61,700 nt of DNA. It comes from Gammaproteobacteria bacterium (GTDB lineage: Bacteria > Pseudomonadota > Gammaproteobacteria > SZUA-229). The notes below the pieces were generated by a model, which was given only the letters and a program-made list of their open reading frames with translations, had not been told where the DNA came from and searched no databases. The DNA lies in NCBI GenBank assembly GCA_029882215.1, contig JAOULC010000004.1:1-61700 (forward strand), written 5' to 3'. Of this stretch, positions 18,821-34,061 are shown one piece after another. Each line of letters opens with the position of its first letter. The stretch's first letter is position 1. The position numbers and the translations under genes were made by a program.

Positions 18821-19582
18821 TTAATTTTTTAGCACCGAGAGAACCGCTTTAAGTAAAGTCTCTTCTTTATAGGGCTTGGTAATATAGGCATCCGTTGAAC
18901 TCATTTTACCCTTCATTTTATCCATTAAACTGTCTTTTGATGTAACCAGAATAATCGGTAACGATTTGAACCTTTCATTCTTTTTCAAAAGATCAACCAC
19001 TTTATAACCATCAATCCCAGGCATGATTAAATCCAGAATAATTAAATCAGGGATTTCCTTATCAAGCATGTCCAGTGCTTCAAATCCACTGATTGCTTCA
19101 GTGACATCAAAACCATATTCAAGCAAAGGAGCAGACGCCGCTTTTCTCGCAATAATACTGTCATCTACGACCAATATTCTGCCTTGTACTGGCTTTGTTA
19201 CTGAGCTTAACTTATCAGTCAAATCTGTAACCATACCTAGCTGGTCAGAGCTATTGCTTTTAATCGGTGTATTGATATCAAAATACTTAAAAAAGTCTTC
19301 ATTAGACATCCTTGCAGAGCCCGCGTTTGCATAAGAGTTAGCAACTGCCCCCGGCTTCGCCGGCCTGAACATGAATCTTAGTTCTTCCAGTTTCTTAAGC
19401 TCTGGCAAAACCTGCATACCCCGGAATATGCCATAGTTTAAAGATACAATCTCAGCATTTTCTATTATTAGTTTTCCCCAGCCATCATCATTACCCATAA
19501 TGACGACAGTACCATCCATATTAAAACTAATATATTCAGCAATAGCCTCTATGAAATGCTTTAATGTTTGTTTGTATTGCAC
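18821..19582 (-). CDS. Response regulator with N-terminal DUF4388-like domain
   Basis: A 253-residue protein. The first 75 residues ('GTVVIMGNDDGWGKLIIENAEIV') look like a DUF4388 or PatA N-terminal module, a small beta-rich domain often found with receivers. A linker of about 55 residues leads to a complete receiver domain (135-253): acidic pair D140-D141, phospho-acceptor D184 in 'LILDLIMPGIDGY', T214 and K236 ('TKPY'). No DNA-binding domain follows. It is the last gene of the minus-strand signalling operon, 36 bases after the kinase-like gene. It could be the phosphorylated output of CheA, as PilG or PatA-like proteins are in other systems. Confidence 0.8.
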   Translation of the reverse strand: MQYKQTLKHFIEAIAEYISFNMDGTVVIMGNDDGWGKLIIENAEIVSLNYGIFRGMQVLPELKKLEELRFMFRPAKPGAVANSYANAGSARMSNEDFFKYFDINTPIKSNSSDQLGMVTDLTDKLSSVTKPVQGRILVVDDSIIARKAASAPLLEYGFDVTEAISGFEALDMLDKEIPDLIILDLIMPGIDGYKVVDLLKKNERFKSLPIILVTSKDSLMDKMKGKMSSTDAYITKPYKEETLLKAVLSVLKN

Positions 19583-19618: not shown

Positions 19619-20716
19619 TTACTTTTGCGGTAGTCTTACTGTTACCTGGGTGCCGGTATTCAGTTCACTGTCTATCCAGATATTGCCATGACACTTTTTA
19701 AGAAGATCGTGGCAAATCACCAGACCGATACCAGTTCCCGCTTCTCCGGCTGTCCCCCTTGTTCTTTCATGACGCCCTAATTGAAAGATACTTTCAAGTC
19801 GTTCTGTTTCGATGCCAACACCTGTATCTCTGATAGTGATTAATACTGCATTATCAACATTTGACACTTCCGATTTGATAACAACCTTACTCTCTTTATG
19901 ACTAAATGAAACTGCATTAGATAGTAAGTTAATTGCAATAATACGAAGATACTCCTCGTCAAAATAAGCAGTATGATCTGGCGCAATATTATTGATTATA
20001 GTAATAACTTTGTGCTTATTTTCAGCCTGAACATGACTCACTACTTCATCAAAAATCGGTAATATCTGCACTGTCCTTAGTGTCACAGGTAATTCATTGT
20101 TTTGTAATGCTGACCAGTATTTTAATTTAAGTGAAATATTATCCAGATAATCTGCTGCCAGATACGCCGAAGAAATGTAGTCCAACATCAGCTCAGGATC
20201 TAACGCTCTTGATGGCTTGTCCATTTCCTTTAACAGTGACCTTAAGCCGACGATAGGTGTACGCAGGTCTTCGGAAATTATGGAAATAAATTTATTTTTT
20301 GCAGCATCTTGCTGCAAAAGTTTTTGTTCTTGCATTCGCAGCTTGATCTGCGTTTTAACACGGGCGTTAACTTCTTCAAAGTTAACCGGTTTTGTAAGGT
20401 AATCAGCCCCGCCCACATTAAATCCTTTAACGATACTTTCTATATCGATTTTAGCCGTTATAAATATAACTGGAATGTGAGATGTGGCAGGCATTTCTTT
20501 TAATTTTTCACAGACCTGATAACCATCTAAACCTGGCATCATTATATCGAGCAGTACCAGATCTATATCATAGTCCTGACACAAACCCAGGGCGGTTTGA
20601 CCATTATCTGCGGTTAAAACCTTATAATCTTCGGCCTGCAAAAAGCGTTCAAGCACGCTGATATTTGATGGGTAATCATCTACGATTAAGATAGTTGCTT
20701 GTTTCTTTTTATCCAT
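19619..20716 (-). CDS. Receiver plus histidine-kinase-like protein lacking the phospho-acceptor His
   Basis: A 365-residue soluble protein. Residues 8-125 form a receiver (D13-D14, phospho-acceptor D57 in 'LVLLDIMMPGLDGY', T88, K109 in 'TKP'). Residues 135-205 are a dimerisation helix pair where the H-box reads 'SIISEDLRTPIVGL': the position of the usual His is E149. The C-terminal ATPase domain keeps its N-box (N263, N267), 'IRDTGVGIE' and 'GEAGTGIGLVICHDLL'. So ATP binding is likely, but autophosphorylation on His is not possible at the normal site. It may act on a partner, as a phosphatase, or as a nucleotide-dependent scaffold. It follows the binding-protein gene by 110 bases. Confidence 0.82.
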   Translation of the reverse strand: MDKKKQATILIVDDYPSNISVLERFLQAEDYKVLTADNGQTALGLCQDYDIDLVLLDIMMPGLDGYQVCEKLKEMPATSHIPVIFITAKIDIESIVKGFNVGGADYLTKPVNFEEVNARVKTQIKLRMQEQKLLQQDAAKNKFISIISEDLRTPIVGLRSLLKEMDKPSRALDPELMLDYISSAYLAADYLDNISLKLKYWSALQNNELPVTLRTVQILPIFDEVVSHVQAENKHKVITIINNIAPDHTAYFDEEYLRIIAINLLSNAVSFSHKESKVVIKSEVSNVDNAVLITIRDTGVGIETERLESIFQLGRHERTRGTAGEAGTGIGLVICHDLLKKCHGNIWIDSELNTGTQVTVRLPQK

Positions 20717-20826: not shown

Positions 20827-21873
20827 CTAGTTATCAGGAAATGAAATAATACTTTCAACCGTCGTGATATCAGTTACATTGGCAGACCTTGCAAACTGAT
20901 CATTTACGAGGCCTTCAATATTGCTATCCTCAACCAGTTTAAACCTCTGCATCTGCTCAGCCATATATTTAAATTCTGTTACTATGGGCACATACTTATT
21001 ATAGACAATCCGGTTTTCAGGTGTTGTTAGTGCATACTTAACCAGATCTTCAGACTGGTTCCAGTACTTAACGGCAATTTTAATTGCACTTTGAGTATTT
21101 TTCTGGCTCCATAAACCTGAGCGTGCTGCACTTTGTACAAAGCGCTGTACGATTTCAGGGTCTTTATCAATTAAACTCTGCCTGACAACAACCAAATTAC
21201 ACATAAAGTCAGGCCATACATCTTCAACATATTTAACCAAAGTGGAATCACCGCTTTTAAGTGTCTTAGCTGCAAACGGCTCACCAACATAGTAAGCATC
21301 CAGCGAGCCACTTGATAATGCGGATGCCATATCCGGAGGATTCATTTCTACAACCTTAATGCGACCGTTTAAGCCACTATCTTCAATCAGTTGTAAAATA
21401 CTTAAATTATGACCGGAATAACGCATCGGTACAGCTACGGTTTTATCGATTAAATCTTCTATGCGAGTGACTTTTAAGTCTTTTCTTGCAACCAATGTAC
21501 TTTCATGTCGATTACCAATATAAACAACCCGGACGTCTTCGCCTTGCTGTTTTAACACAATAGACAATGGTGCAATCATAAATGCGACATCAATTTGTTC
21601 GTTACGCAATGACTCAGCCATGTCAGCAAATGATGAATATTTTATCGCTTTATAGCGAATATCTCCTGTCGATTTACTGACATGATCCAGAATGGGTGCA
21701 GCAAGATTGGTAATAACCGGCATATATCCCATTGAGATTATTCTTCGTTCACTATGCTCTGTATTTAATAAAAAATGCATATAGGAAATGAAAAAAAGCC
21801 AGATAATTGCTCCTGAAAAAAGCACCCACACAAGCGGGACTGATTTGAGCTGGTAAGATATTTTATGCAACAT
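20827..21873 (-). CDS. Membrane-anchored ABC transporter substrate-binding protein (SsuA/NrtA type)
   Basis: A 348-residue periplasmic binding protein of the NMT1/OpuAC-like group that includes taurine, sulfonate, nitrate and thiamine-precursor binders. Residues 14-36 ('VWVLFSGAIIWLFFISYMHF') form an uncleaved-looking transmembrane helix instead of a normal signal peptide or lipobox, so the domain should stay anchored outside the inner membrane. The mature part begins 'ISMGYMPVITNLAAPILDH' and includes 'EQIDVAFMIAPLSIVL' like text with a Gln-Ile-Asp, and 'SGSLDAYYVGEPFAAK', a family hallmark. The ligand cannot be read from sequence. Its start overlaps the ATPase gene by 11 bases. Confidence 0.85.
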   Translation of the reverse strand: MLHKISYQLKSVPLVWVLFSGAIIWLFFISYMHFLLNTEHSERRIISMGYMPVITNLAAPILDHVSKSTGDIRYKAIKYSSFADMAESLRNEQIDVAFMIAPLSIVLKQQGEDVRVVYIGNRHESTLVARKDLKVTRIEDLIDKTVAVPMRYSGHNLSILQLIEDSGLNGRIKVVEMNPPDMASALSSGSLDAYYVGEPFAAKTLKSGDSTLVKYVEDVWPDFMCNLVVVRQSLIDKDPEIVQRFVQSAARSGLWSQKNTQSAIKIAVKYWNQSEDLVKYALTTPENRIVYNKYVPIVTEFKYMAEQMQRFKLVEDSNIEGLVNDQFARSANVTDITTVESIISFPDN

Positions 21874-22657
21874 AGCTCACACCAAGCTCCATAAATACTT
21901 CATCACGTAACTCTCTAAGACCAGGTTCTTTTTCGATGTTACGAGGACGAGAAAAGTTAAGCTTTCTTTCCATGGTGACTCTTGCTGGTTTCTCATTCAT
22001 AACGATAATTCGGTCTGCCATAATTAACGCATCATCAATAAAATGCGTTACCATCACCATGGTTTTACCTATAAAGCTATGCATATTAATGACTTCTTCA
22101 CGTATTTTTAAATGTGTAAGGTAATCCAGTCCTGTAAATGGCTCATCCATATAAAGCACATCAGGATTAACAGCCAGTGCCCTGCCTAATTCTGCCCGCC
22201 GCTGCATACCACCTGAAAGCTGGCTTGGATAGTGATGCTCAAAACCAGTCAGCTCAACCATGTCGATGTACTCTTGGATGGTCTCTGTTTTTTCAGCTTC
22301 ATCTTCAATATGGCGCAAACCTAATTCAACATTTTGCCACACCGTCATCCATGGTAATAATCCATTCTGTTGAAAAACATAAACATGATCAGGGCTAGTC
22401 TTAAATGTCTCTTGACCATCAATCAGAATTTTACCTGTTGTTGCCCGATCAAACCCCGCCATTATTCTTAATAATGTAGATTTACCGCAGCCCGATGGTC
22501 CCAGAATACAAACCATTTCGCCATCTTCAAATTCCATATTGATATCATCAAACACTTTAATTACTTGGCCGGCCTTTTCAGGATCATTAATATCACGCTT
22601 TTTTGCGCGCTTATTAACGTAGCTCTTGCTAAGCCCTTCAATTTTAATAGAACCCAT
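21863..22657 (-). CDS. ABC transporter ATP-binding protein (SsuB/TauB/NrtD type)
   Basis: A 264-residue nucleotide-binding subunit. Visible are the Walker A 'GPSGCGKST' (53-61), the Q-loop 'FQQNGLLPWMTVWQNV' (95-110), which is typical of taurine, sulfonate and nitrate importers, the signature 'LSGGMQRRAELGRAL' (148-162), Walker B 'LYMDEPF' (168-174) and the switch H205. A charged insertion of about 13 residues near 20-32 ('KRDINDPEKAG') is unusual for the group. It is sandwiched between the permease and binding-protein genes with 12 bases before it and an 11-base overlap after it, so the three form one importer. Confidence 0.9.
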   Translation of the reverse strand: MGSIKIEGLSKSYVNKRAKKRDINDPEKAGQVIKVFDDINMEFEDGEMVCILGPSGCGKSTLLRIMAGFDRATTGKILIDGQETFKTSPDHVYVFQQNGLLPWMTVWQNVELGLRHIEDEAEKTETIQEYIDMVELTGFEHHYPSQLSGGMQRRAELGRALAVNPDVLYMDEPFTGLDYLTHLKIREEVINMHSFIGKTMVMVTHFIDDALIMADRIIVMNEKPARVTMERKLNFSRPRNIEKEPGLRELRDEVFMELGVSYVA

Positions 22658-22669
22658 TGTAAACCTTCT

Positions 22670-23434
22670 TTAAGAGTGTTGCTTTGCAGCCATGATGAAA
22701 CCGAGTCTGCCTAATTTATACATAATAATATCTAACAGCAATCCAATAATTCCTATAACAATCATTGCCACCATGACATAGTCCATGCGCAGAGCATTTC
22801 TGGAATCAAGAATCAGATAACCTAATCCTGACTGCACTGCAATCATTTCAGCCGCCACGACAACAAGCCAGGCAATGGCAATCGTTAAACGTAAAGCAGT
22901 TACCACTTCAGGCAATATTGCTGGCACTACAATTTTGGTAATCATTTCAACTCGAGACAAGTTAAAATTTGACGCCACCTGAAAATAAATCGGGTTTATT
23001 GAGCTAACCGCAATTGCAGTAGCGACAACAATAGGGAAAAAACTTGAAAGAAAAATAAGAAAAATAGCGGGGTTATCACCCAAACCGAACCATAGCATGG
23101 CTAGTGGTATCCATGCTAACGGAGAGATTGGACGAAGAAACTGAATGATCGGATTTAAAGCGTATGATACCGCCTTAACCCTGCCAATAAGAATACCTAG
23201 CGGAATACCTACAATGGCCCCCAGATAGAAACCGATAGTCACACGGTATAAGCTGGCAACGGAATGATTAAATATTGAGCCATTCGCGACAAGCTCAAAA
23301 AAACTGTTGAGAACAGGCAGCGGTCCCGGAAATACCGACTCACTCCAGCCACTATACATTGCAACTAACTGCCATATTATGATAACTACTGAGAATGAAA
23401 TCAGTGGATATATAAACTTTTTACTTAAAGCCAT
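22670..23434 (-). CDS. ABC transporter permease (SsuC/TauC/NrtB type)
   Basis: A 254-residue inner-membrane permease with about six transmembrane helices. Family features are 'VFPGPLPVLNSFFEL' near the N-terminus, 'IGIPLGILIGRVKAV', 'FLRPISPLAWIPLAMLWFG' and the cytoplasmic coupling loop 'RVEMITKIVVPAILPEVVTALRLTIA' seen in two halves, with 'AEMIAVQSGLGYLI' after it. These match the taurine/sulfonate/nitrate group. It begins 24 bases after the ParA-like gene, so the importer is in the same operon as the chemosensory genes. Confidence 0.9.
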   Translation of the reverse strand: MALSKKFIYPLISFSVVIIIWQLVAMYSGWSESVFPGPLPVLNSFFELVANGSIFNHSVASLYRVTIGFYLGAIVGIPLGILIGRVKAVSYALNPIIQFLRPISPLAWIPLAMLWFGLGDNPAIFLIFLSSFFPIVVATAIAVSSINPIYFQVASNFNLSRVEMITKIVVPAILPEVVTALRLTIAIAWLVVVAAEMIAVQSGLGYLILDSRNALRMDYVMVAMIVIGIIGLLLDIIMYKLGRLGFIMAAKQHS

Positions 23435-23458: not shown

Positions 23459-24415
23459 TTAATTTAGGGCTATAATTTCTTTTGCTAAATTATAGTACTG
23501 TCTGCCAGCACGACTTTCCTTATCATAAAAAATAGTTGGTTTGTGAACAATCTGCGATTCACGCACTTTTGAATCCTTTTCTATCATTGTTGTAAAGACA
23601 TGTTCGTTGTATTCATCCTTCAGTTTTTTGAGTACTACTCGCGAAGCCGTATCATTAGCTTCAAACATTGTAATGGAGATCCTGTAATCCAGTTCGTGGG
23701 CCGACTTATCACGAATAACCTTAATCATATTTGCAATATGTGCCACACCTTGCATTGAGAGGTATTCACACGGTGTCGGGATAATCGCAAGATTTGAAGC
23801 CAGCAGGGCATTAAGTGTATAAAAATCACCGGATGGTGGCGTATCTATAATGATGTAGTCAAAATAGTCAGCAATGACCTTTAATTTATCTCTTAATAAA
23901 TATTCAAAATTTTCGTTCTGGATATGTGTTTTCGAGAGCAGTGCCATTTTACTATTAGAAGGTAATAACCAAACATTAGATTGTGTTTTAACAATATACT
24001 CGGCAATGCCCACATCTTTAGACTGAATCACCTCGAAAAATGATTTTGCATCTTTATATCCCATCAGCAGACTAAGGTTAGCCTGGATATCAAAGTCTAT
24101 AATAAGCACACGTTTTTTCAGTAAACTCAGTGAAACACCAAGGTTCAGAGATGTAGTTGTTTTAGCTACACCACCTTTCTGATTGCACACCGAAATAATT
24201 TTAGCACTATGATGCCGGTCTGCTGTATCTATCCCATCGATAACGACAGAGTCATTATTTATAGCAGGATTACTTTCGACACTTGACTGCGACACTTGCT
24301 TGCGCACAACAAAAACATTTTTACATTTAGAACAGCGAACACTGGTTTCATTTTTTTTAATAACGCTTTCGTTAATATTGTAACGAGCATTACAGTTATC
24401 GCAGGTTATAATCAT
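23459..24415 (-). CDS. ParA/MinD-family ATPase with N-terminal zinc ribbon
   Basis: A 318-residue ATPase. Residues 3-38 form a zinc ribbon of the MJ0042 type: 'CDNCNARYNI' and 'VRCSKCKNVFVV', four Cys in two CxxC pairs. A 35-residue linker leads to a ParA domain with the deviant Walker A 'KGGVAKTT' (80-87), 'VLIIDFDIQANLS', 'DYIIIDTPPSGD' and 'IPTPCEYLSMQGVAHI'. ParA proteins of this sort place chemosensory arrays or plasmids by cycling on the nucleoid. I chose the ATG at 24415, one base past the cheB stop, since the ribbon begins there. No ParB partner is visible. Its position between CheB-like 1 and the importer genes suggests array positioning, like ParC or PpfA, but this is inference. Confidence 0.82.
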   Translation of the reverse strand: MIITCDNCNARYNINESVIKKNETSVRCSKCKNVFVVRKQVSQSSVESNPAINNDSVVIDGIDTADRHHSAKIISVCNQKGGVAKTTTSLNLGVSLSLLKKRVLIIDFDIQANLSLLMGYKDAKSFFEVIQSKDVGIAEYIVKTQSNVWLLPSNSKMALLSKTHIQNENFEYLLRDKLKVIADYFDYIIIDTPPSGDFYTLNALLASNLAIIPTPCEYLSMQGVAHIANMIKVIRDKSAHELDYRISITMFEANDTASRVVLKKLKDEYNEHVFTTMIEKDSKVRESQIVHKPTIFYDKESRAGRQYYNLAKEIIALN

Positions 24416-24416
24416 C

Positions 24417-25469
24417 TCAGTCACCCTGCCCGTTTGAAACAATTGAATCAATCATAGCAGCCAGCTGATTAGCATTTGTAATCTTATCAACAACACCGTT
24501 CTGAATAGCCGTATGTGTAAGATTCGGGTAAACACAGGTTTCTGTTGACTGAGCAATTGTTACACCGCCCTTCTCTTTAATCGACATAAAGCCCTGACTG
24601 CCATCATCACCAATACCCGTTAACAAAACACCGATTGCATTGTCATTAAAAGCTTCTGCCGCTGATGTAAAAAGGTCATTTAATGGTCGCTCCGGCTTTT
24701 CACCGAGTGACAGACAAAATTCATCATTCAGATTACTCTTAACAGTCAGTGGTTCATTATATGAACAGACATAACAAACACCCTGCTCCAGTACAGCACC
24801 TTCAATACCAACTTCAACACGCCATGGTGTGTAGTCATTAAACTTTGCAACAAACGCAGGTAATATTTTTTGTGAAATTTCCTGAACGACAACCACTGCA
24901 GCAGGGAGGTCAGGTGAAAGCTGCGACATCAGATTAATAATGGTATTGGGTCCACCTAGCGTTGTTCCAATTGCTATAATATATTCGAGCGGGCGAAATT
25001 CATAACGTTCTGACAAGCGATCACGAGAATCAAGCTTACAGACACGTACCCTCCTGACTTTCTCAATATCTTCATCGGCAGCAATTTTTACTCTGTCGAT
25101 AATTTTATTACGCTCATTATGAATATCATGTGAGATAGCACCGGATGGCTTTGGCATGAAATCAACGACACCAAGGCGCAGCGCTTCAAACGTGATTTCA
25201 CCATGATTAAACAGGGAGCTCAGCATAACAATCGGAACCGGTGACTCAATCATAATATGCCGTACGGATCTGATACCATCCATAACAGGCATATCAACAT
25301 CTAATGTAATAACATCAGGGCTTAATTCTTTTATTTTTTCAAGTGCTTCCAGACCGTTTTTAGCATATCCAACCACATCAATATCCGGGTCTGAACCCAG
25401 CATTTCAGTCAGAGCTTTAACCATAAAAGAAGCATCATCAACAATCAGAACTCTTATTTTATCTGTCAT
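24417..25469 (-). CDS. CheB-like protein 1, methylesterase residues replaced
   Basis: A 350-residue protein with the CheB layout: receiver (1-125; D11-D12, phospho-acceptor D57, K107), linker, and a CheB methylesterase-fold domain (160-345). In CheB the catalytic Ser, His and Asp lie in IGASTGG, VVxQH and GxxDG. Here the first reads 'IGTTLGG' (Thr170 for Ser), the second 'VVVQEIS' (Glu197 for His), and only the Asp remains ('TGIGDDG', D289). The fold is conserved but hydrolysis is not expected. Phosphorylation of D57 by CheA should still be possible. It lies 56 bases after cheA and is followed by parA with one base between. I would not name it cheB as an active enzyme. Confidence 0.85.
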   Translation of the reverse strand: MTDKIRVLIVDDASFMVKALTEMLGSDPDIDVVGYAKNGLEALEKIKELSPDVITLDVDMPVMDGIRSVRHIMIESPVPIVMLSSLFNHGEITFEALRLGVVDFMPKPSGAISHDIHNERNKIIDRVKIAADEDIEKVRRVRVCKLDSRDRLSERYEFRPLEYIIAIGTTLGGPNTIINLMSQLSPDLPAAVVVVQEISQKILPAFVAKFNDYTPWRVEVGIEGAVLEQGVCYVCSYNEPLTVKSNLNDEFCLSLGEKPERPLNDLFTSAAEAFNDNAIGVLLTGIGDDGSQGFMSIKEKGGVTIAQSTETCVYPNLTHTAIQNGVVDKITNANQLAAMIDSIVSNGQGD

Positions 25470-25525: not shown

Positions 25526-28471
25526 TTATTCAGACTTAAGTTTTTTTCTTAAATTTTCTTTCAGACGCCTTGTCTGTTCTCTTTGCTTTTTGGCCTGTCT
25601 CTCGGCAGTCAGTCTGACCAGCTCATAAACATCCAGTATAAGAGAAATTCTGCCATCACCGATAATCGTTGCTCCAGAAAAGCCACTCTTATCCTGTACA
25701 TAATCTACCAGCGGTTTGATTACAACTTCATCCTGCCCCATCATTTCATCTACGACAAAACCAACTCGTTGTCCGCCTGAACTGACAATGACAACATATA
25801 ATTTATTTGTATTTGCATCAGAATCAATATTAAAGATATGTGACAATCTGAAAACAGGCAGCGTTTGGCCACGCAAATAAATAACTTCTACACCTTCAAC
25901 TGTCGATATTTCCTCTACATTTATCCGCACACTTTCGTCTACGTTTGCTAATGGAATAGCAAAAACATCATTACCTGTGCGAATCATCAGCGCATGAATA
26001 ATCGCAAGTGTAAGCGGAATCTTAACCCGCATTCTGGTTCCTGCACCCGGTTTAGTATCTATTACCAATGAACCATTTAGCTTTTCGATGTTTTTACGAA
26101 CCACATCCATTCCAACACCACGACCCGAGGTACTTGACACTTTACCCGCTGTAGAGAACCCTGCCGTAAGAATGATTTTGTTTATGTCAGGCGCTGACAT
26201 TCTCTCTAACTCATCAGCCGAAAATAAACCTTTTTCTATTGCCTTACTCTTGATCTTTTGATGATCAAGTCCACGCCCGTCATCCGTTACTTCGATGACT
26301 ATATTGTTACTTTCCTGATAGGCATTCAGCATTAAGTTAGCTTCAGCCTGCTTACCTAGCAGTTTACGCTCATCCATCGTTTCAATACCATGATCGACGG
26401 CGTTTCTAATAATGTGCACTAACGGATCTGAAAGTTCTTCAACAATCATCTTATCGAGTTCAGTCTCCTCACCTTTTACAATCAGGTTTACTTTTTTAGC
26501 TGAGTTATGTGTCAGATCATGAACCAGTCTGGGGTAACGATTAAATATCTGGGAAATGGGCAACATACGCATCTTCATGACACCTTCCTGGAGTTCATTA
26601 GATGTTCTTCCTAAACCGGAGATCGCTTCACCCAAACGATAATTAAATGTCCGGAGCATTTTCAGTTCTTTCTGATCAAGATTGAGTGATTCTTTTAAGT
26701 ATCGCTGTAAGGTACTAAGCTCATTTTGTAACTGAACAAAATAAGAGCGATCTACAACAAGTTCACCGACCTGATTCATTAGTGTATCGATCTTATCGGA
26801 GTCAACTCTGAGGCTCCTTTTTGTTTTGTTTTCTTTATTTTCACGCTGCGACCGCCTTTCTTCAAACAGACGCCTCTCTTCAGAAATAACGCGCCTGTCA
26901 GCGTATGTACGCCGCTCTGGCACAACCTGTTTAAGCGGTTTTTTTGCCGGTGTTTGCTGAACCTGGGTCGCCGTATTTGTCTCTTTTGTAGCCGAAGAAA
27001 CCATGACATCGTATACTTGATTTAATGTTTCATACTCTGCTTTAGTTACCTCATGGATTGGCTGACTCAACGCAGTACTTAACTGTCCAAATAATGCATC
27101 ATCGATCTGACTGTTAATAGATTCATCCAGTGCAGCACTTAATTCGTCGATAGCCGAAGCATCTGTTGATGGGACAGGTATATCATCTGTAATAACAGGG
27201 GCTGGCGTCTTCTGGAGTTCATTATCGGTAGTACTTACAAAAGCAACATCAGGAAAAAGCTGTTTTAGTTCTGCAAGATAAAAATCCATAAAGGACAGGC
27301 TAACTTCATCACCCTTGGCGTAAGCTTTTGCAGCCTGTGTCAACGTTTCAGACCACCCTGCATAGAACTCTGAAACTTCTTCATAGCCCATATAGTTAGC
27401 TGATGACGTTAGTTTATCGATAATGCCGATTGTGCTCTGTATATGAGATGCATTATTGACTGTGTCAGACGGCTCTTGAAACATCTTCTCTAAAGCAGAT
27501 ACACTGTCTTGCAATTGTTTAGTGAAAATAGAAAATAACTCTTCATCATTTTCTTCTTGTATACCGACACCCGAAATTGATTTTTTTACTTCCTTAGGCA
27601 TATCACTGTCAGGTGATATATCCGCTGATTCAGTCGACTGGGGATTAGTTTCAGTGTCTTTATCCTGTTTTAGCTGCGGGTAAAACTGCATTAGCTCAGC
27701 GAAATAAAACTCCATAAAAGACAAAGAAATCTCTTTGCCTTTTGTCAGTTCCTTTAATGCCTGTTGTATGGTTTCAGCCCAGCCGCTACAAAATTCAGCA
27801 ATTTCTTCGTAGCCCATGTAGTTAGCTGATAATCTAAGCTTTTCGATGGCATCAAAGCAGCTTGTTAAACGCTGCTGCTTATCTTCCGAATTATCAATAT
27901 TATCCAGTGCACCTTTAATAACAGAAGACTGTGTATTCACTTGATTGAGGTAGATCGACAATAGCTCTTCGTCATTTTCTTCACTTAAATCATTATTCTG
28001 TGATTTAAGTGAAGCATCAAGTGAGGTCATAGCAGTTGTCTTAGTTATATCTTGCTGAGTAAATTCAGATGTACCTTCAAGCGCTGTTCCGTCCAGGATA
28101 GATGATAGTTTATCGAGCAGATCATCAACAGAAGACTCTTCTGTCTGTGTTCGTTCGAGCTCTTTTACCAACTGAATAATCCGGTCTCTGGCTTCTATTA
28201 GAGTCTCTATGATAAATGGAGTTGCGACCATTGTTGCATCACGTAATTTATCCATCAGATCTTCGAGCCGGTGAGTCAGCTCCGATATTCTCTTTATGCC
28301 AATAAACTGAGCAGAGCCCTTGATTGTGTGAACAGGCCTGAATAACTCATTCAGAATCTCAAGATCATCCGGGCTCTCGACTAACTGAAGTAGCAGAGTC
28401 TCCATCTCTTCGAGATGTTCTGTGGCTTCGACAATAAAATCGGGAAGCTGTGATAATTCAATTTCACTCAT
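25526..28471 (-). CDS. cheA: Chemosensory histidine kinase CheA, with two extra Hpt-like repeats
   Basis: A 981-residue CheA, much longer than the 650-residue E. coli protein. P1 carries the phospho-acceptor H48 in 'RPVHTIKGSAQFIG'. Residues about 165-260 and 305-410 are two related helical units, each with 'SANYMGYEE' and a 'SFMxFYxAEL' tail; they resemble Hpt domains but have Glu or Asp where the His should be. A charged linker (about 520-560, many Arg and Glu) leads to the P3 dimerisation helices ('IDTLMNQVGELVV'), the P4 ATPase ('HIIRNAVDHGIE', 'VTDDGRGLD', 'TSGRGVGMDVV') and the P5 CheW-like domain. It should feed phosphate to CheY and the receiver proteins of the same operon. Confidence 0.93.
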   Translation of the reverse strand: MSEIELSQLPDFIVEATEHLEEMETLLLQLVESPDDLEILNELFRPVHTIKGSAQFIGIKRISELTHRLEDLMDKLRDATMVATPFIIETLIEARDRIIQLVKELERTQTEESSVDDLLDKLSSILDGTALEGTSEFTQQDITKTTAMTSLDASLKSQNNDLSEENDEELLSIYLNQVNTQSSVIKGALDNIDNSEDKQQRLTSCFDAIEKLRLSANYMGYEEIAEFCSGWAETIQQALKELTKGKEISLSFMEFYFAELMQFYPQLKQDKDTETNPQSTESADISPDSDMPKEVKKSISGVGIQEENDEELFSIFTKQLQDSVSALEKMFQEPSDTVNNASHIQSTIGIIDKLTSSANYMGYEEVSEFYAGWSETLTQAAKAYAKGDEVSLSFMDFYLAELKQLFPDVAFVSTTDNELQKTPAPVITDDIPVPSTDASAIDELSAALDESINSQIDDALFGQLSTALSQPIHEVTKAEYETLNQVYDVMVSSATKETNTATQVQQTPAKKPLKQVVPERRTYADRRVISEERRLFEERRSQRENKENKTKRSLRVDSDKIDTLMNQVGELVVDRSYFVQLQNELSTLQRYLKESLNLDQKELKMLRTFNYRLGEAISGLGRTSNELQEGVMKMRMLPISQIFNRYPRLVHDLTHNSAKKVNLIVKGEETELDKMIVEELSDPLVHIIRNAVDHGIETMDERKLLGKQAEANLMLNAYQESNNIVIEVTDDGRGLDHQKIKSKAIEKGLFSADELERMSAPDINKIILTAGFSTAGKVSSTSGRGVGMDVVRKNIEKLNGSLVIDTKPGAGTRMRVKIPLTLAIIHALMIRTGNDVFAIPLANVDESVRINVEEISTVEGVEVIYLRGQTLPVFRLSHIFNIDSDANTNKLYVVIVSSGGQRVGFVVDEMMGQDEVVIKPLVDYVQDKSGFSGATIIGDGRISLILDVYELVRLTAERQAKKQREQTRRLKENLRKKLKSE

Positions 28472-28533: not shown

Positions 28534-28884
28534 TTACTTTTGAGCTAACTCTAGTATTTGATCCGGATCATGTTTATTGGCAAGGCCTATTGCACCAATA
28601 CGATCAACCTCATCCCGGTATTTTTCTTCATCAAGGTTTGAAAGAATCAGAATCCGGGCAGCCTTATCAAACTCGAGGATTTCTTTTGCTGCTGTTAAAC
28701 CGTCCATACCGCGCATAGTGATATCCATCGTCACAAGGTCAGGGTTTAATTCTTTATACATTTCTATAGATTCAAGACCATTGCTTGCCAAACCTATAAT
28801 CGAGTGCCCTGCTTCCTCAAATATTTTTACAAGCATTTTTCTCATAATAGTAGAGTCATCTACAATTAATATTGTCTGAGTCAT
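28534..28884 (-). CDS. cheY: CheY-type single-domain response regulator
   Basis: A 116-residue stand-alone receiver. Acidic pair D9-D10, phospho-acceptor D54, the Ser/Thr switch S82 ('LILSNLD') and the conserved K104 are present. Two positions are unusual: the loop after the Asp reads 'DITMRGMDG', with Arg in place of the near-invariant Pro, and K104 is followed by His instead of Pro. Both loops neighbour the phosphorylation site and the face used by partners. It sits between cheW and cheA, so it is probably the diffusible output of this array, but the target (flagellar motor, pilus motor or another protein) is not shown. Confidence 0.9.
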   Translation of the reverse strand: MTQTILIVDDSTIMRKMLVKIFEEAGHSIIGLASNGLESIEMYKELNPDLVTMDITMRGMDGLTAAKEILEFDKAARILILSNLDEEKYRDEVDRIGAIGLANKHDPDQILELAQK

Positions 28885-28921: not shown

Positions 28922-29461
28922 TCAAATCATATCGTTTTCAGTTAGTATCAGCGCATCATCATCCATTTCTTTTAGTAGTTTCTGCTCTTCATTAAACAGT
29001 ACTAAGTCAAAATCAAGAATAATGATGAGTTTGCCTGCTATCTCACAGACTCCCTCTATATACTGGCTTTCAAGACCTGAAACAATAATTTCAGGTGCCA
29101 TTTCAACACGCGCCTCTTCAATCTTTAAAACCTCTGTTACCTTATCAACTATAAAACCGACGACTTTGTTTTCGATATTTAAGATCAGAGTCCAGCATTT
29201 CTTTTCAGAGGTTTCTTTATTGTAAAGATTAAGGCGTTTACGTAAATCAATAACCGGCACGATATTGCCACGAAGGTTAAGTACACCTTCAATGAATTCA
29301 GGTGCATTTGGAACCCGTGTAACATTCGCAGAGCGAAGTATCTCCTGCACCATTAATATATCGACACCAAAATGCTCATTTGCCACGCCAAAGCCAACAA
29401 GCTGCACAAGGCCTTCATCTTCTGAGTCTTCAGCCTCATCGATGTTAAAATTATCTGACAT
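28922..29461 (-). CDS. cheW: CheW coupling protein
   Basis: A 179-residue single CheW domain that joins CheA to receptors in the array. Motifs are 'LVQLVGFGVANEHFGVDIL', in which the strand and following turn match CheW, 'RVPNAPEFIEGVLNLRGN' split across the receptor-binding groove, 'IVPVIDLRKRL' and 'VDKVTEVLKI'. It has N- and C-terminal acidic tails ('DEAEDSEDEG' and 'ETEND'-like ends) but no receiver, so it is not CheV. GGAG precedes the ATG. It follows the MCP gene by 90 bases and is followed by cheY after 37. Confidence 0.93.
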   Translation of the reverse strand: MSDNFNIDEAEDSEDEGLVQLVGFGVANEHFGVDILMVQEILRSANVTRVPNAPEFIEGVLNLRGNIVPVIDLRKRLNLYNKETSEKKCWTLILNIENKVVGFIVDKVTEVLKIEEARVEMAPEIIVSGLESQYIEGVCEIAGKLIIILDFDLVLFNEEQKLLKEMDDDALILTENDMI

Positions 29462-29551: not shown

Positions 29552-31582
29552 TTAGAATTTGAACTGCGAAATCTTAGCTGTCAAATCATCTGATTGCTTT
29601 TTCAATGATTCAGTAACCTGTACAACCGTACCGGCACCTTCCACGGTTTGTGTTGCAGCTTGCGCTGATTCACTTGACAGTTTAATGATAGCTTTGGCAC
29701 GCTGCGCCTGCATCTCGGTCATCTGCGTCATCTCAACACCCCGTTTAACAACGCCATCCATGTCTTGTGAGATATCTTGTACGCTTCGGCCTGAATCGAT
29801 GATCAGGTTGACGATCAATTTGGCAAATTCTTCCAGCTTGTTCAGTGCTTCTTCTGCTTCTCTTCGACGCTGTCCCTGCTCATTTGCCATTAAACCGATC
29901 TTCTGAGCCATTTCATTCAGTTCTTGCATCAAGTTCTGGACATCATTGGTACTCATTGTCAGCGTTGAAGACGCCGCATTGATCGCGTTGATTGCTTCAA
30001 TGTTTAACTTACCACCTTCATCAATCCTTGCCAGTGCTGCCTGTGACTGATCCGAAAGCTTTACACCCTCGATTACGTTAGAAGATGAATCTTTAATTAA
30101 CTGGGTAATCTCCTTAGCCGCTTCTGATGAGCGCTGAGCGAGTTTACCAACCTCGTCCGCAACCACCGCGAAGCCTTTACCATGTGCACCGGCTCGGGCC
30201 GCCTCTACTGCTGCATTAAGTGCCAGTAAGTTAGTCTGTTCTGCGATCTCTGTGATTACACCAATGATTTCAGAGATCTGGTCGGATGATTCAGCAATCT
30301 TACGCATACCCTGTACGGATGCTTCTACCGATGTACGGCCTTCTTCTGCTGCTATTAATGCCGCATTACCATATTCACTGGCCTTGATTACAGCGCCACG
30401 CATCTCATCCACCGCTTCGGCCATTTCATTGATCGAACTGGTTACCCGGACAACCATGACGCCCTGATTTCTCGCGTTATCCACAACCTTGGCACCTGTT
30501 TCACCCATGGTACCTACGGTATGCAGTGCGGTGGTTACCTCGTTATCCTGATCTTTGGCCGCTTTTTCAACGTTCTGCATTTTCTCTAATAAACCTTCGA
30601 TGGTTTTCTGCGAGGTTTCCGCTGCCGTCGCCTGTCCAGCCACCGCTTGTGATACCAAAGTAGCTGTATTACCCATGTCGGTGATTACTTTTTCAGATGT
30701 ACGACTACGTTCAAGCTCACCCTGCGCCCTTTGTCTGTTTGCGCCAGCTCGTTGTGCCACATCGTCTGCTCCTGATGTTACTTCTTTTGTAGTAGTAACC
30801 ACTGAGCCGATAATTTCACGGAAGTTTTTAAGTAATGAATTCAAGGCATGTGATGTCTGGCCTATTTCATCTCCGCTACGTACCGGTACCTGAAGTGTCA
30901 GGTCGCGAGTTTCATTAATGTGACGTATGGTTTCGGTCATTTCACGAACAGGGCGGGTAATACCCCGGATAACAATAAAACTTAATACTAATAGCAATGC
31001 AATCGCCGATGGTAATGCGATAAACATTGTATTTATTGCCTGAGCGATGATTGCGTGCATCTCAGCCGTTGCAGTTTTAGTTTGTGACTCTAAGCTTTTA
31101 GTCAAGTCTGTCAGTGCCTTTAAAAATGGCCCGTCATTTATTTTTACAATCGCATCACGCTCTTCTGCTGTCTTGCCTTCATTAACCAGCCTTTTGACGT
31201 CATCATTCGCTTTACCATAAGTACTCAGCAGCTCAGATAAAGCCGTTAAAGCTTTATCTTCGACCTGATTTACACCCAGAGCCCGGTATGCATCAAGTGC
31301 TTTTTTTGTAGCATTTGCAAGCTCAATATACTGTTCGTGATATTTATGCTGCCCACGTAGCACGTAGTTTTTAAATACGTGAATACCACCTCCATAGCCT
31401 ATGTCTTTACGTATCTCGACCAGATGGGCCTCTTTCTTATATACACCGGAAATAAACTCATTCCATTGTTTATCAGCTGTAGTCAAACTGAAGTACGCCA
31501 TAACACCGATGACAATTAGCACGACGGCTGCCACCAGAGTCAGACCGGAAAGCTTTACGCCCAGTCCTATATTTTTAAACAT
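29552..31582 (-). CDS. Methyl-accepting chemotaxis protein (transmembrane receptor)
   Basis: A 676-residue receptor: TM1 (about 10-31), a periplasmic helical domain of about 150 residues, TM2 (about 183-206), HAMP (to about 260) and a long cytoplasmic hairpin. The signalling tip '[21 protein letters not shown]' is seen in two parts and is canonical. The periplasmic domain carries '[16 protein letters not shown]' near residue 65, a Gly-rich, His-containing motif that I associate with other proteobacterial sensors, with unknown ligand. The ATG at 31582 is chosen for AAGGAG seven bases upstream. There is no C-terminal pentapeptide for CheR/CheB tethering. It is the only receptor in the window and should start the main operon. 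Confidence 0.95.
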
Positions 31583-31713
31583 GAGCAATCTCCTTACTTA
31601 TACGAAAAGTATTTTTATTAGTAACAGGGAAATGATGAACACACCCTGATTCAGAATTTGTTTGTCCAGTGAAATGAGTCCGCACTGTTTCAATCTCCGC
31701 TTAACTGTCTATT

Positions 31714-31823: not shown

Positions 31824-32864
31824 CTAGTTGACCAGTTTATTAATGCCAGCCGCTATTCTTGAATCTGTTTCTACAATAGCTACCTGGCTTCTTGACATCG
31901 CTATTTCAACCATTTCATTACAGAGGCAGCTACTTGGATCCTGAGCAAGTGCCGTTCCACCTACTCTAATTATCTCTTCAAGCCCTTCAGCACCATCCTC
32001 TCCCAAACCTGACAGTATGACGCCTACGGCATGATCTTTAATAGATTCAGCTGTGGAAAAAAACAGCATATCAATAGCACCGCGACGATTTATAAAAGGC
32101 GCAGAGCTGATATGCAAAACATAGTCTTCGAGCTCACTATGGACACTCATATAATTATCACCAGAGCTAATATAACAACATCCAGGCTTAATGACTTCGT
32201 TATGCGCTGCATGTTTAACCTCGACCTGACTATAGCTGTTTAAATAACCAATAAACGCATCAACAAATTCTGTAGGTACATGCAGTGACACCAGATAAGC
32301 AACGCCGGGAGAGCTGCTCAGTTGCGGGATAATTTTTAACAGCGCGCCATAACCACCTTCAGCTGCGCCCAATGCAACTAAGTGATGACAATGGTTATTA
32401 TTAAAATCAGCTTTTGTTTGTTCATTACCAGATTTGTGACGGATATACTTTATCGCACCTAACTCGACTTTAGCTGCGTACTCTACTCTACTTCGGATTG
32501 CCTGCTTTTGTTCTTCAAGGCTAATATCGGATATCGCGGATGGCTTGGAGATAAAATCAACTGCTCCATAACGCAGGGCATCAAAGGTAATTTTCGCACC
32601 CTCCTGAGCCAGGCTGCTTAACATAATCGTAGGTACAGGCTGATCAATCATTATCCGCTTAAGTGTACTAATGCCATCGAGCTCTGGCATATTAATGTCC
32701 AGCGTTATGACATCTGGCTTAAATACATCGAGTAATGCAAGTGCTTCAAAACCATCAGACGCCGTTTCGATCATGATATTTTCATCATCAGCAAAAATAC
32801 CGACGAGAGCATCTCTCATCAGCTTTGAGTCATCGACAATCAGTAACCGCAATGCACTTTCCAT
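31824..32864 (-). CDS. CheB-like protein 2, catalytic serine replaced by alanine
   Basis: A 346-residue CheB-type protein: receiver (1-125; D11-D12, phospho-acceptor D56, 'SKPS' Lys) and CheB-fold domain (160-346). Where CheB has the nucleophile in IGASTGG this one reads 'LGAAEGG', so the Ser is A168. The His is kept (H195 in 'VSLHVP') and the Asp is kept ('SGLGEDG'). Without the Ser, esterase and deamidase activity is not expected. A TTG ten codons upstream extends the frame; the ATG at 32864 was chosen by alignment with the receiver start, although neither start has a good Shine-Dalgarno. It differs from CheB-like 1 in which catalytic residue is lost, so the two decayed or specialised separately. 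Confidence 0.82.
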   Translation of the reverse strand: MESALRLLIVDDSKLMRDALVGIFADDENIMIETASDGFEALALLDVFKPDVITLDINMPELDGISTLKRIMIDQPVPTIMLSSLAQEGAKITFDALRYGAVDFISKPSAISDISLEEQKQAIRSRVEYAAKVELGAIKYIRHKSGNEQTKADFNNNHCHHLVALGAAEGGYGALLKIIPQLSSSPGVAYLVSLHVPTEFVDAFIGYLNSYSQVEVKHAAHNEVIKPGCCYISSGDNYMSVHSELEDYVLHISSAPFINRRGAIDMLFFSTAESIKDHAVGVILSGLGEDGAEGLEEIIRVGGTALAQDPSSCLCNEMVEIAMSRSQVAIVETDSRIAAGINKLVN

Positions 32865-33650
32865 CGTTTTTATATAACTTTTATTGTCTAGCAATTTATT
32901 ACAATCTTAGCCGTTAAAAAACGGTGCTAAGCCGGACATATATAGGACACATCCTGACTGTTAGATGCATTTTATATAAACATTTATTGATATTTAACAT
33001 TAGACAATCTTAGTATAAAAAAAGAGTCTAGTACAAATAATCTGAGAATTTTTTTCAAAATCGGTTGTTTTTTAACCAAAAAAAACATACTTTAACTTAA
33101 CACGATAAATTATTGTTTTATTTGGAAATAACTATCTAAGATATACTCGATAAATAAAAGTAAAAAAAACCAAGGACATCAAATACTTAATTGTGTCCGG
33201 TTGAATCATCCAGACAAACAAGCGGATTCATTAAGTCAACTGATGATAAATTGACAGGTTAAATTTAAAAAAAGACTGGCTTAGAATAATTGCGATACTT
33301 AGGCTTGCTTTTATATATTTTAGTCTGATCTACAGGCACCAGCTACCTACAAAAACTTGAAATCGGCTGCAATTACCCCAGTATTTAAAAGGATACTCTT
33401 TAATGATAAAGCTGTAAACAACAGCAGTCTCCGTTTTGACAGAAAATGGTTTAATTGACTTCAAATACGATAATGAGAAGCCAGACTGGACTGGCTGTCG
33501 CAGCCTTTCGGAGAGAAAGAATTCATTGACTCAGAATTTCGCATATTCCTTATGCATCAATTTAATACTGAACTAAAAGCAAAATAGCCATCGTGGCTTG
33601 TTGACAGCAACGATGGCTTTTTGATTAGGCATAAACTTTTATTTACAGGG
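32865..33650. other. Large gap between CheB-like 2 and hemerythrin
   Basis: 786 bases without a supported gene, the longest empty stretch in the window and lying inside the signalling island. It is AT-rich at the left. The only clear structure is the hairpin at 33586-33622. On the plus strand several GGA trinucleotides occur (near 33172, 33223, 33391, 33487 and 33511), which could be CsrA sites in an unannotated transcript, but their number is not far above chance. No riboswitch core that I know was found. Confidence 0.4.
33586..33622. terminator. Hairpin terminator, stronger on the plus strand
   Basis: A perfect 9-bp stem (AGCCATCGT with ACGATGGCT, 15-base loop) followed on the plus strand by TTTTT and on the minus strand by ATTTTGCTTTT. 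The hemerythrin gene ends at 33651 on the minus strand, so it can serve as its terminator. The better T-run faces the plus strand, where no gene is annotated upstream, which would fit a small RNA ending here. Confidence 0.6.
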
Positions 33651-34061
33651 TTAGTTAATACCGGCGGCGTTAACAGTGGCTGTATATTTTTGATCCATTA
33701 CCAGAATATGCTCCTTTAACCAGTCAATACCTGTCTTAGTCACTTTAGGAACTACAAAAATAGCCATACCAGAAGCAGCTTCTTCTTGATATTCAACCAT
33801 CTTGTTAACGAAATTGACATGCGATCTTTTCTGACTGTCCAGTGCTGAATAATTAACACGCTCCAGCATTTTCTCTTCTTCTCCAAAGTGGTAACGTGTG
33901 TAATCAATCAGCTCGCTAATTTCTTTAGTTACAACCTCTTCCCCTGTTCCCGCTTTAGCCGCTTCGTGGAGTTTGTTTAAAATATCAAACAGCTTTTTGT
34001 GATGATTATCCATCGCAAGTACATTAACACTGTATTCATCTTTCCAGTTAAATAAAGCCAT
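33651..34061 (-). CDS. Bacteriohemerythrin with one iron-ligand His replaced by Gln
   Basis: A 136-residue single-domain hemerythrin, an O2-binding diiron protein of the cytoplasm. Ligand positions by comparison with the family: H21, H58, E62, H81, H118 and D123 are present ('DNHHKKLF', 'RYHFGEEE', 'KEHILVMD'). The seventh, four residues before H81, is Q77 (codon CAG), where His is normal; the segment reads 'LDSQKRSHVNF'. So one iron site may be weakened. The ATG has AAGAGATAAG upstream, a good binding site. Hemerythrins are often found with chemosensory genes as oxygen sensors or carriers. Upstream is the trigger-factor paralogue, in divergent orientation. Confidence 0.9.
   Translation of the reverse strand: MALFNWKDEYSVNVLAMDNHHKKLFDILNKLHEAAKAGTGEEVVTKEISELIDYTRYHFGEEEKMLERVNYSALDSQKRSHVNFVNKMVEYQEEAASGMAIFVVPKVTKTGIDWLKEHILVMDQKYTATVNAAGIN

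Follow-up and report, generated by a model that had tools for sequence, protein, structure and literature searches.

What does a CheB protein do once residues that make it an enzyme have been replaced? CheB is known from textbooks as the phosphorylation-activated esterase behind chemotaxis adaptation. The window, that is, the whole 61,700-nucleotide stretch of DNA analyzed here, encodes on its minus strand a CheB (CheB1, alpha family, 24417..25469) whose catalytic triad reads Thr170/Glu197/Asp289. The open reading frame corresponds exactly to positions 24417-25469, starts with ATG and encodes 350 amino acids comprising a receiver domain (Response_reg, PF00072, residues 7-109) and a full-length CheB_methylest domain (PF01339, residues 165-340, 135.8 bits), both over the Pfam cut-off. 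Against the NCBIfam CheB model PRK00742 the protein scores 277 bits, below the curated cut-off of 293. We aligned CheB1 residue by residue with two references, Salmonella CheB (1a2o) and Pectobacterium atrosepticum CheB (6ymz; triad S165-H191-D287, phospho-acceptor D56; PMC7698151). Thr170 (codon ACG, 24960-24962, minus strand), directly preceded by Thr169 (ACA), takes the position of the catalytic Ser and Glu197 (GAA, 24879-24881, minus strand) that of the catalytic His, while Asp289 (GAT, 24603-24605, minus strand) is the sole triad residue kept. Motif tests agree, with the Ser motif G-x-S-x-G-G and the His motif Q-H-M/I-P absent and the Asp motif G-x-G-x-D-G present. The reading frame and codon check rules out misread codons or a frameshift as the source of the substitutions, and a wrong start or wrong coordinates are likewise ruled out by the reading frame. 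In the receiver, Asp11, Asp12, the phospho-acceptor Asp57 (25299-25301, minus strand), Ser84 and Lys107 are all present. The original prediction of Thr for the catalytic Ser, Glu for the catalytic His, a retained Asp and an intact receiver is thus borne out by codons and structural alignment.

CheB1 shares with CheB esterases/deamidases (PF01339 and PF00072; 1a2o, 6ymz) its domain order, its phosphorylation residues and its fold. An AlphaFold2 model (pLDDT 88.5) finds its best matches in 1a2o and 6ymz with TM scores of 0.84-0.86 (0.86 for 1a2o), indicating that CheB1 folds as an ordinary CheB and that its active site has changed. Like ordinary CheB, it is encoded in an operon with CheA, CheW, CheY and a methyl-accepting chemotaxis protein (MCP). 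It differs in the replacement of Ser and His and in belonging to a system without CheR and without a conserved receptor methylation motif. Because both the nucleophile and the base are lost, CheB-type methylesterase or deamidase chemistry is very unlikely. CheB1 is a CheB by homology, and by catalytic criteria it is no CheB methylesterase.

The altered triad is conserved among CheB1 orthologues. A scan of 84,980 prokaryote species yielded 21 orthologues with 52-85% identity, all from metagenome-assembled genomes (MAGs) of Gammaproteobacteria and Desulfobacterota that are labelled Gammaproteobacteria, Methylococcaceae, Chromatiales, Desulfobacteraceae, Desulfobulbaceae or otherwise. Together with the window copy, the family has 22 members; Ser-His-Asp occurs in none of them, and conservation extends to the receiver residues. 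Position 170 is occupied by Thr in 19, Ser in two and Asn in one, position 197 by Glu in 19 and Asp in three, and position 289 by Asp in 20 and Glu in two of the 22 proteins. The family is under strong purifying selection, with dN values of 0.11-0.13 between CheB1 and its three closest relatives and dS values that are saturated or nearly so. Mean column entropy is 0.59 bits in four motifs that surround the former active site and 1.47 bits in the rest of the domain (P = 0.0006 for random block placement, a somewhat flattering value as the fourth motif, TCVYPNL, was picked after viewing the alignment). No part of the catalytic domain is better conserved than these motifs, and the cleft is therefore probably still used. 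The phosphorylation switch is retained as well. All of the 95 aligned degenerate CheB sequences, some of which come from near-duplicate loci, have Asp12, Asp57, Ser84 and Lys107, and the phospho-acceptor Asp is kept in every degenerate CheB examined. We also considered whether all CheBs of these organisms are degenerate. This is ruled out by 27 other CheBs from genomes bearing the operon, which are Ser-His-Asp; CheBs of related genomes that do not carry the operon also have this triad, so that triad loss tracks the operon and not the organism. The substitutions in CheB1 are neither error nor decay.

The CheB1 operon encodes a set of chemosensory signaling proteins on the minus strand. The window order is CheB2 (beta family, receiver and CheB domain, triad Ala178/His205/Asp300, 31824..32894), an MCP with a HAMP domain and an extended signaling hairpin (29552..31588), CheW (28922..29461), a stand-alone CheY receiver (28534..28884), CheA (25526..28471), CheB1, a ParA/MinD-type ATPase with an N-terminal MJ0042 zinc ribbon (23459..24415) and a nitrate/sulfonate-type ABC transporter. 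CheA combines one Hpt domain that contains the His with two Hpt-like repeats, a kinase and a CheW domain. The genuine Hpt (VHTIKGSA) precedes the repeats, which are arranged in tandem, are 42% identical to each other and carry Glu and Asp where the phosphorylatable His would be. The reading frame of the ParA-type ATPase begins with TTG at 24451, while an ATG at 24415 would give MIITCDNC and is probably the actual start. The transporter (window 20827-23434) is part of the conserved operon and consists of a permease (22670..23434), an ATPase (21863..22657) and an NMT1/SsuA-like substrate-binding protein (20827..21873), all on the minus strand. Around the orthologues, gene order matches that of the window as far as the contigs extend, with L054, L061 and L062 being the most divergent loci.

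The second CheB of the operon and its relatives in deltaproteobacterial loci are also mostly degenerate. In CheB2, whose reading frame (31824-32894) has TTG as its first start and an internal ATG a few codons downstream, the catalytic Ser is replaced by Ala while His205 and Asp300 are retained. CheB2 orthologues show the triads A/H/D, A/Y/D, G/Y/D, H/Y/D or S/Y/D, and a single one (L165, genome G074) is S/H/D. This one copy rules out that every CheB2 orthologue is degenerate and indicates that esterase activity may persist in one or more members of the system. As the family spans the intact L165 protein to Gly/Tyr/Asp, stepwise triad loss is traceable there. In deltaproteobacterial relatives, three degenerate CheBs stand in tandem, flanked by an HDOD gene on one side and CheY-CheA on the other, and the third paralogue, found in delta loci and in L054 and L062, is a PATAN (DUF4388)-receiver-CheB fusion. 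A CheB tree from which the triad columns were excluded places CheB1 in a single clade with its orthologues (100/99). In it, CheB2 clusters with the second of the delta copies (100/95), and the third delta copy with an additional CheB from L054 and L062 (100/98). The gammaproteobacterial CheB1 family and the first delta copy are joined with moderate support only (84/65). At the triad sites, the delta sister copies have Leu, Gln, Arg, His or Asp at 170 and Asp, Asn, Gly or Ala at 197. Most delta loci also have, next to the degenerate CheBs and in divergent orientation, genes for a Ras-like small GTPase, a roadblock/LC7 protein and a PilB-like T2SSE ATPase. The conserved delta locus (L063, L066, L068, L072, L073, L076, L077, L080, L081, L083, L087, L097, L116 and L117) also encodes a protein whose C-terminus gives a weak CheW-like match.

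The chemosensory system of the CheB1 operon looks methylation-independent. No CheR is encoded in the operon stretches compared. The only CheR and the only intact CheB of the host genome belong with flagellar genes, the former lying between a CheV-like gene and FlgB/FlgC/FlgD-like genes and the latter having CheA and a MotA-like gene as neighbors on the FlhA-bearing contig. Among the 38 other genomes bearing the system, CheR was not found in eight. Seven of these (G063, G064, G066, G070, G071, G078 and G084) contain neither CheR nor a Ser-His-Asp protein among the CheBs found, and six of the seven, the exception being G078, are without FlhA; the eighth is G074, whose CheB2 is S/H/D. The assembly of G084 comprises only 1.3 Mb and is also without PilT, so that it counts for little. 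As nearly all genomes are MAGs, single absences of CheR or flagella are weak evidence and the pattern across genomes is stronger. A relaxed methylation consensus was not found in 12 of 18 operon receptors, the window MCP included, and no position is common to more than two receptors, the pattern being a loose one that leaves room for unusual sites. Each of the seven other receptors of the same genome has at least one candidate methylation site, mostly at shared positions. The C-terminal arm of the operon MCP measures 229 residues from the tip motif compared with 159-160 in these seven receptors, making its signaling arm about 70 residues (ten heptads) longer.

Gene context points indirectly to type IV pili as the likely output. 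FlhA is encoded in 25 of the 39 genomes with the system and the 14 genomes without it suggest that a flagellum is not required. PilT is present in 38 of the 39, which says little given that PilT is common in such bacteria. The FlhA-less genomes, combined with the PilB-like ATPase and the GTPase/roadblock neighbors in delta loci, make type IV pilus control the likeliest output. From this context, the CheB1 system probably governs type IV pili and not a flagellum.

Conservation across species of both the triad loss and the phosphorylation switch within the operon suggests that CheB1 probably binds a partner and does not demethylate one. The reading that we favor, with some reserve, is that CheB1 is a CheA-controlled, non-esterase response regulator of a methylation-free system that uses its cleft for binding without hydrolysis and likely acts on type IV pili. 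All residues for phosphotransfer are present, and CheA of the operon would phosphorylate the CheB1 receiver. As in ordinary CheB, phosphorylation would then uncover the old active-site cleft by displacing the receiver, and the exposed Thr/Glu/Asp cleft could bind a putative partner without hydrolyzing it. This partner would most likely be the receptor/CheA array, providing stoichiometric feedback, or the neighboring ParA-type ATPase. The surrounding system would run without receptor methylation, with type IV pilus motility as its likely output. The original prediction had also held that CheB1 is probably no methylesterase but a phospho-controlled binding module. Its first half is supported by the triad being present in 0 of 22 family members, by an operon without CheR and by a receptor without a conserved methylation motif, while the binding module is something that we infer.

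Two other readings also assign CheB1 a role of its own. It could serve as a phosphate sink that drains phosphoryl groups from CheA and shortens the CheY-P signal, with the CheB domain doing nothing but fold. The perfectly conserved receiver of a protein that has lost its triad would fit such a role, as would the presence of two or three such proteins per operon competing with one CheY. We nevertheless consider a sink unlikely, since conservation is much higher in the motifs of the former active site than elsewhere in the domain, which a sink would not need, and since usual phosphate sinks are single-domain receivers. CheB1 could instead be an enzyme of other chemistry, with an acidic site made up of Thr, Ser or Asn at position 170 and carboxylates at 197 and 289 that acts by hydrolysis or transfer on some other group, whether this group belongs to the receptor or not. 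The replacements in the CheB1 family are indeed non-random (Thr, Ser or Asn at 170, always Glu or Asp at 197, always Asp or Glu at 289) and have conserved neighbors (GTTLGGPN, QEI and TCVYPNL). However, positions 170 and 197 are little constrained in the deltaproteobacterial sister copies, and we know of no CheB-fold enzyme with a Thr/Glu/Asp-type triad, which makes a new activity a decidedly unlikely explanation.

The remaining alternatives tie CheB1 to ordinary receptor methylation, present or past. CheB1 might modulate methylation through mixed complexes with the flagellar CheR or intact CheB, and one gene for each exists in the host genome. These are flagellar genes, however; seven genomes with the system have neither of them, and the operon receptor differs in arm length from the other receptors of its genome, so that we regard mixed complexes as highly improbable. 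The loss of triad residues from both operon CheBs, in an operon that does not encode CheR, could also be viewed as decay, leaving CheB1 a remnant of a disused methylation system. Against this view, 22 genomes carry an intact copy at identities as low as 52%, dN is much smaller than dS, the receiver residues are preserved and members of different phyla have retained the operon. Decay is largely refuted by this conservation and retains hardly any probability. Binding through a phosphorylation-controlled cleft, the reading that we prefer, fits into a broader and more tentative picture: the CheB1 operon may represent an undescribed class of chemosensory systems that adapt or are tuned without methylation, in which two or three ancient and mostly non-catalytic CheB paralogues could bind in a phospho-dependent manner, provide feedback to the array and direct type IV pili. 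No paper describing degenerate, inactive or pseudo-CheB proteins turned up in a search of the open-access literature, with subscription papers outside its scope. A widespread operon that keeps the switch of CheB and loses its catalysis would naturally separate the two functions. It would make roles of phosphorylated CheB other than demethylation directly testable and would also allow testing how a chemosensory array works without methylation.

Compared by features, the CheB1 system resembles Pil-Chp of Pseudomonas aeruginosa and Frz of Myxococcus xanthus in having a chemosensory kinase with several receiver outputs; the window CheA has extra Hpt-like repeats. Pil-Chp and Frz, which control type IV pili and polarity, possess their own CheR and CheB-type proteins. 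CheB1-type operons, in contrast, do not encode CheR, and most of their two or three CheBs are degenerate. The Ras-like GTPase and roadblock protein of the delta loci resemble, again by features, the MglA/MglB module linked to Frz, and MglA/MglB-type genes are reported to have PATAN genes in their neighborhood (PMC4316618). CheB1 itself differs from PATAN (DUF4388) response regulators in having no PATAN domain. Downstream of the transporter genes, a receiver-histidine kinase hybrid (19619..20716, minus strand) is shared only by the closest operons. It is followed by a response regulator with an N-terminal extension (18821..19582, minus strand), in whose window copy no PATAN match was found and a homologue gave a weak one (E = 0.025). 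Several other operons have a homologue of this regulator, with weaker identity, just ahead of CheB2. The window also encodes a hemerythrin-domain protein (33651-34061) just upstream of the CheB1 operon.
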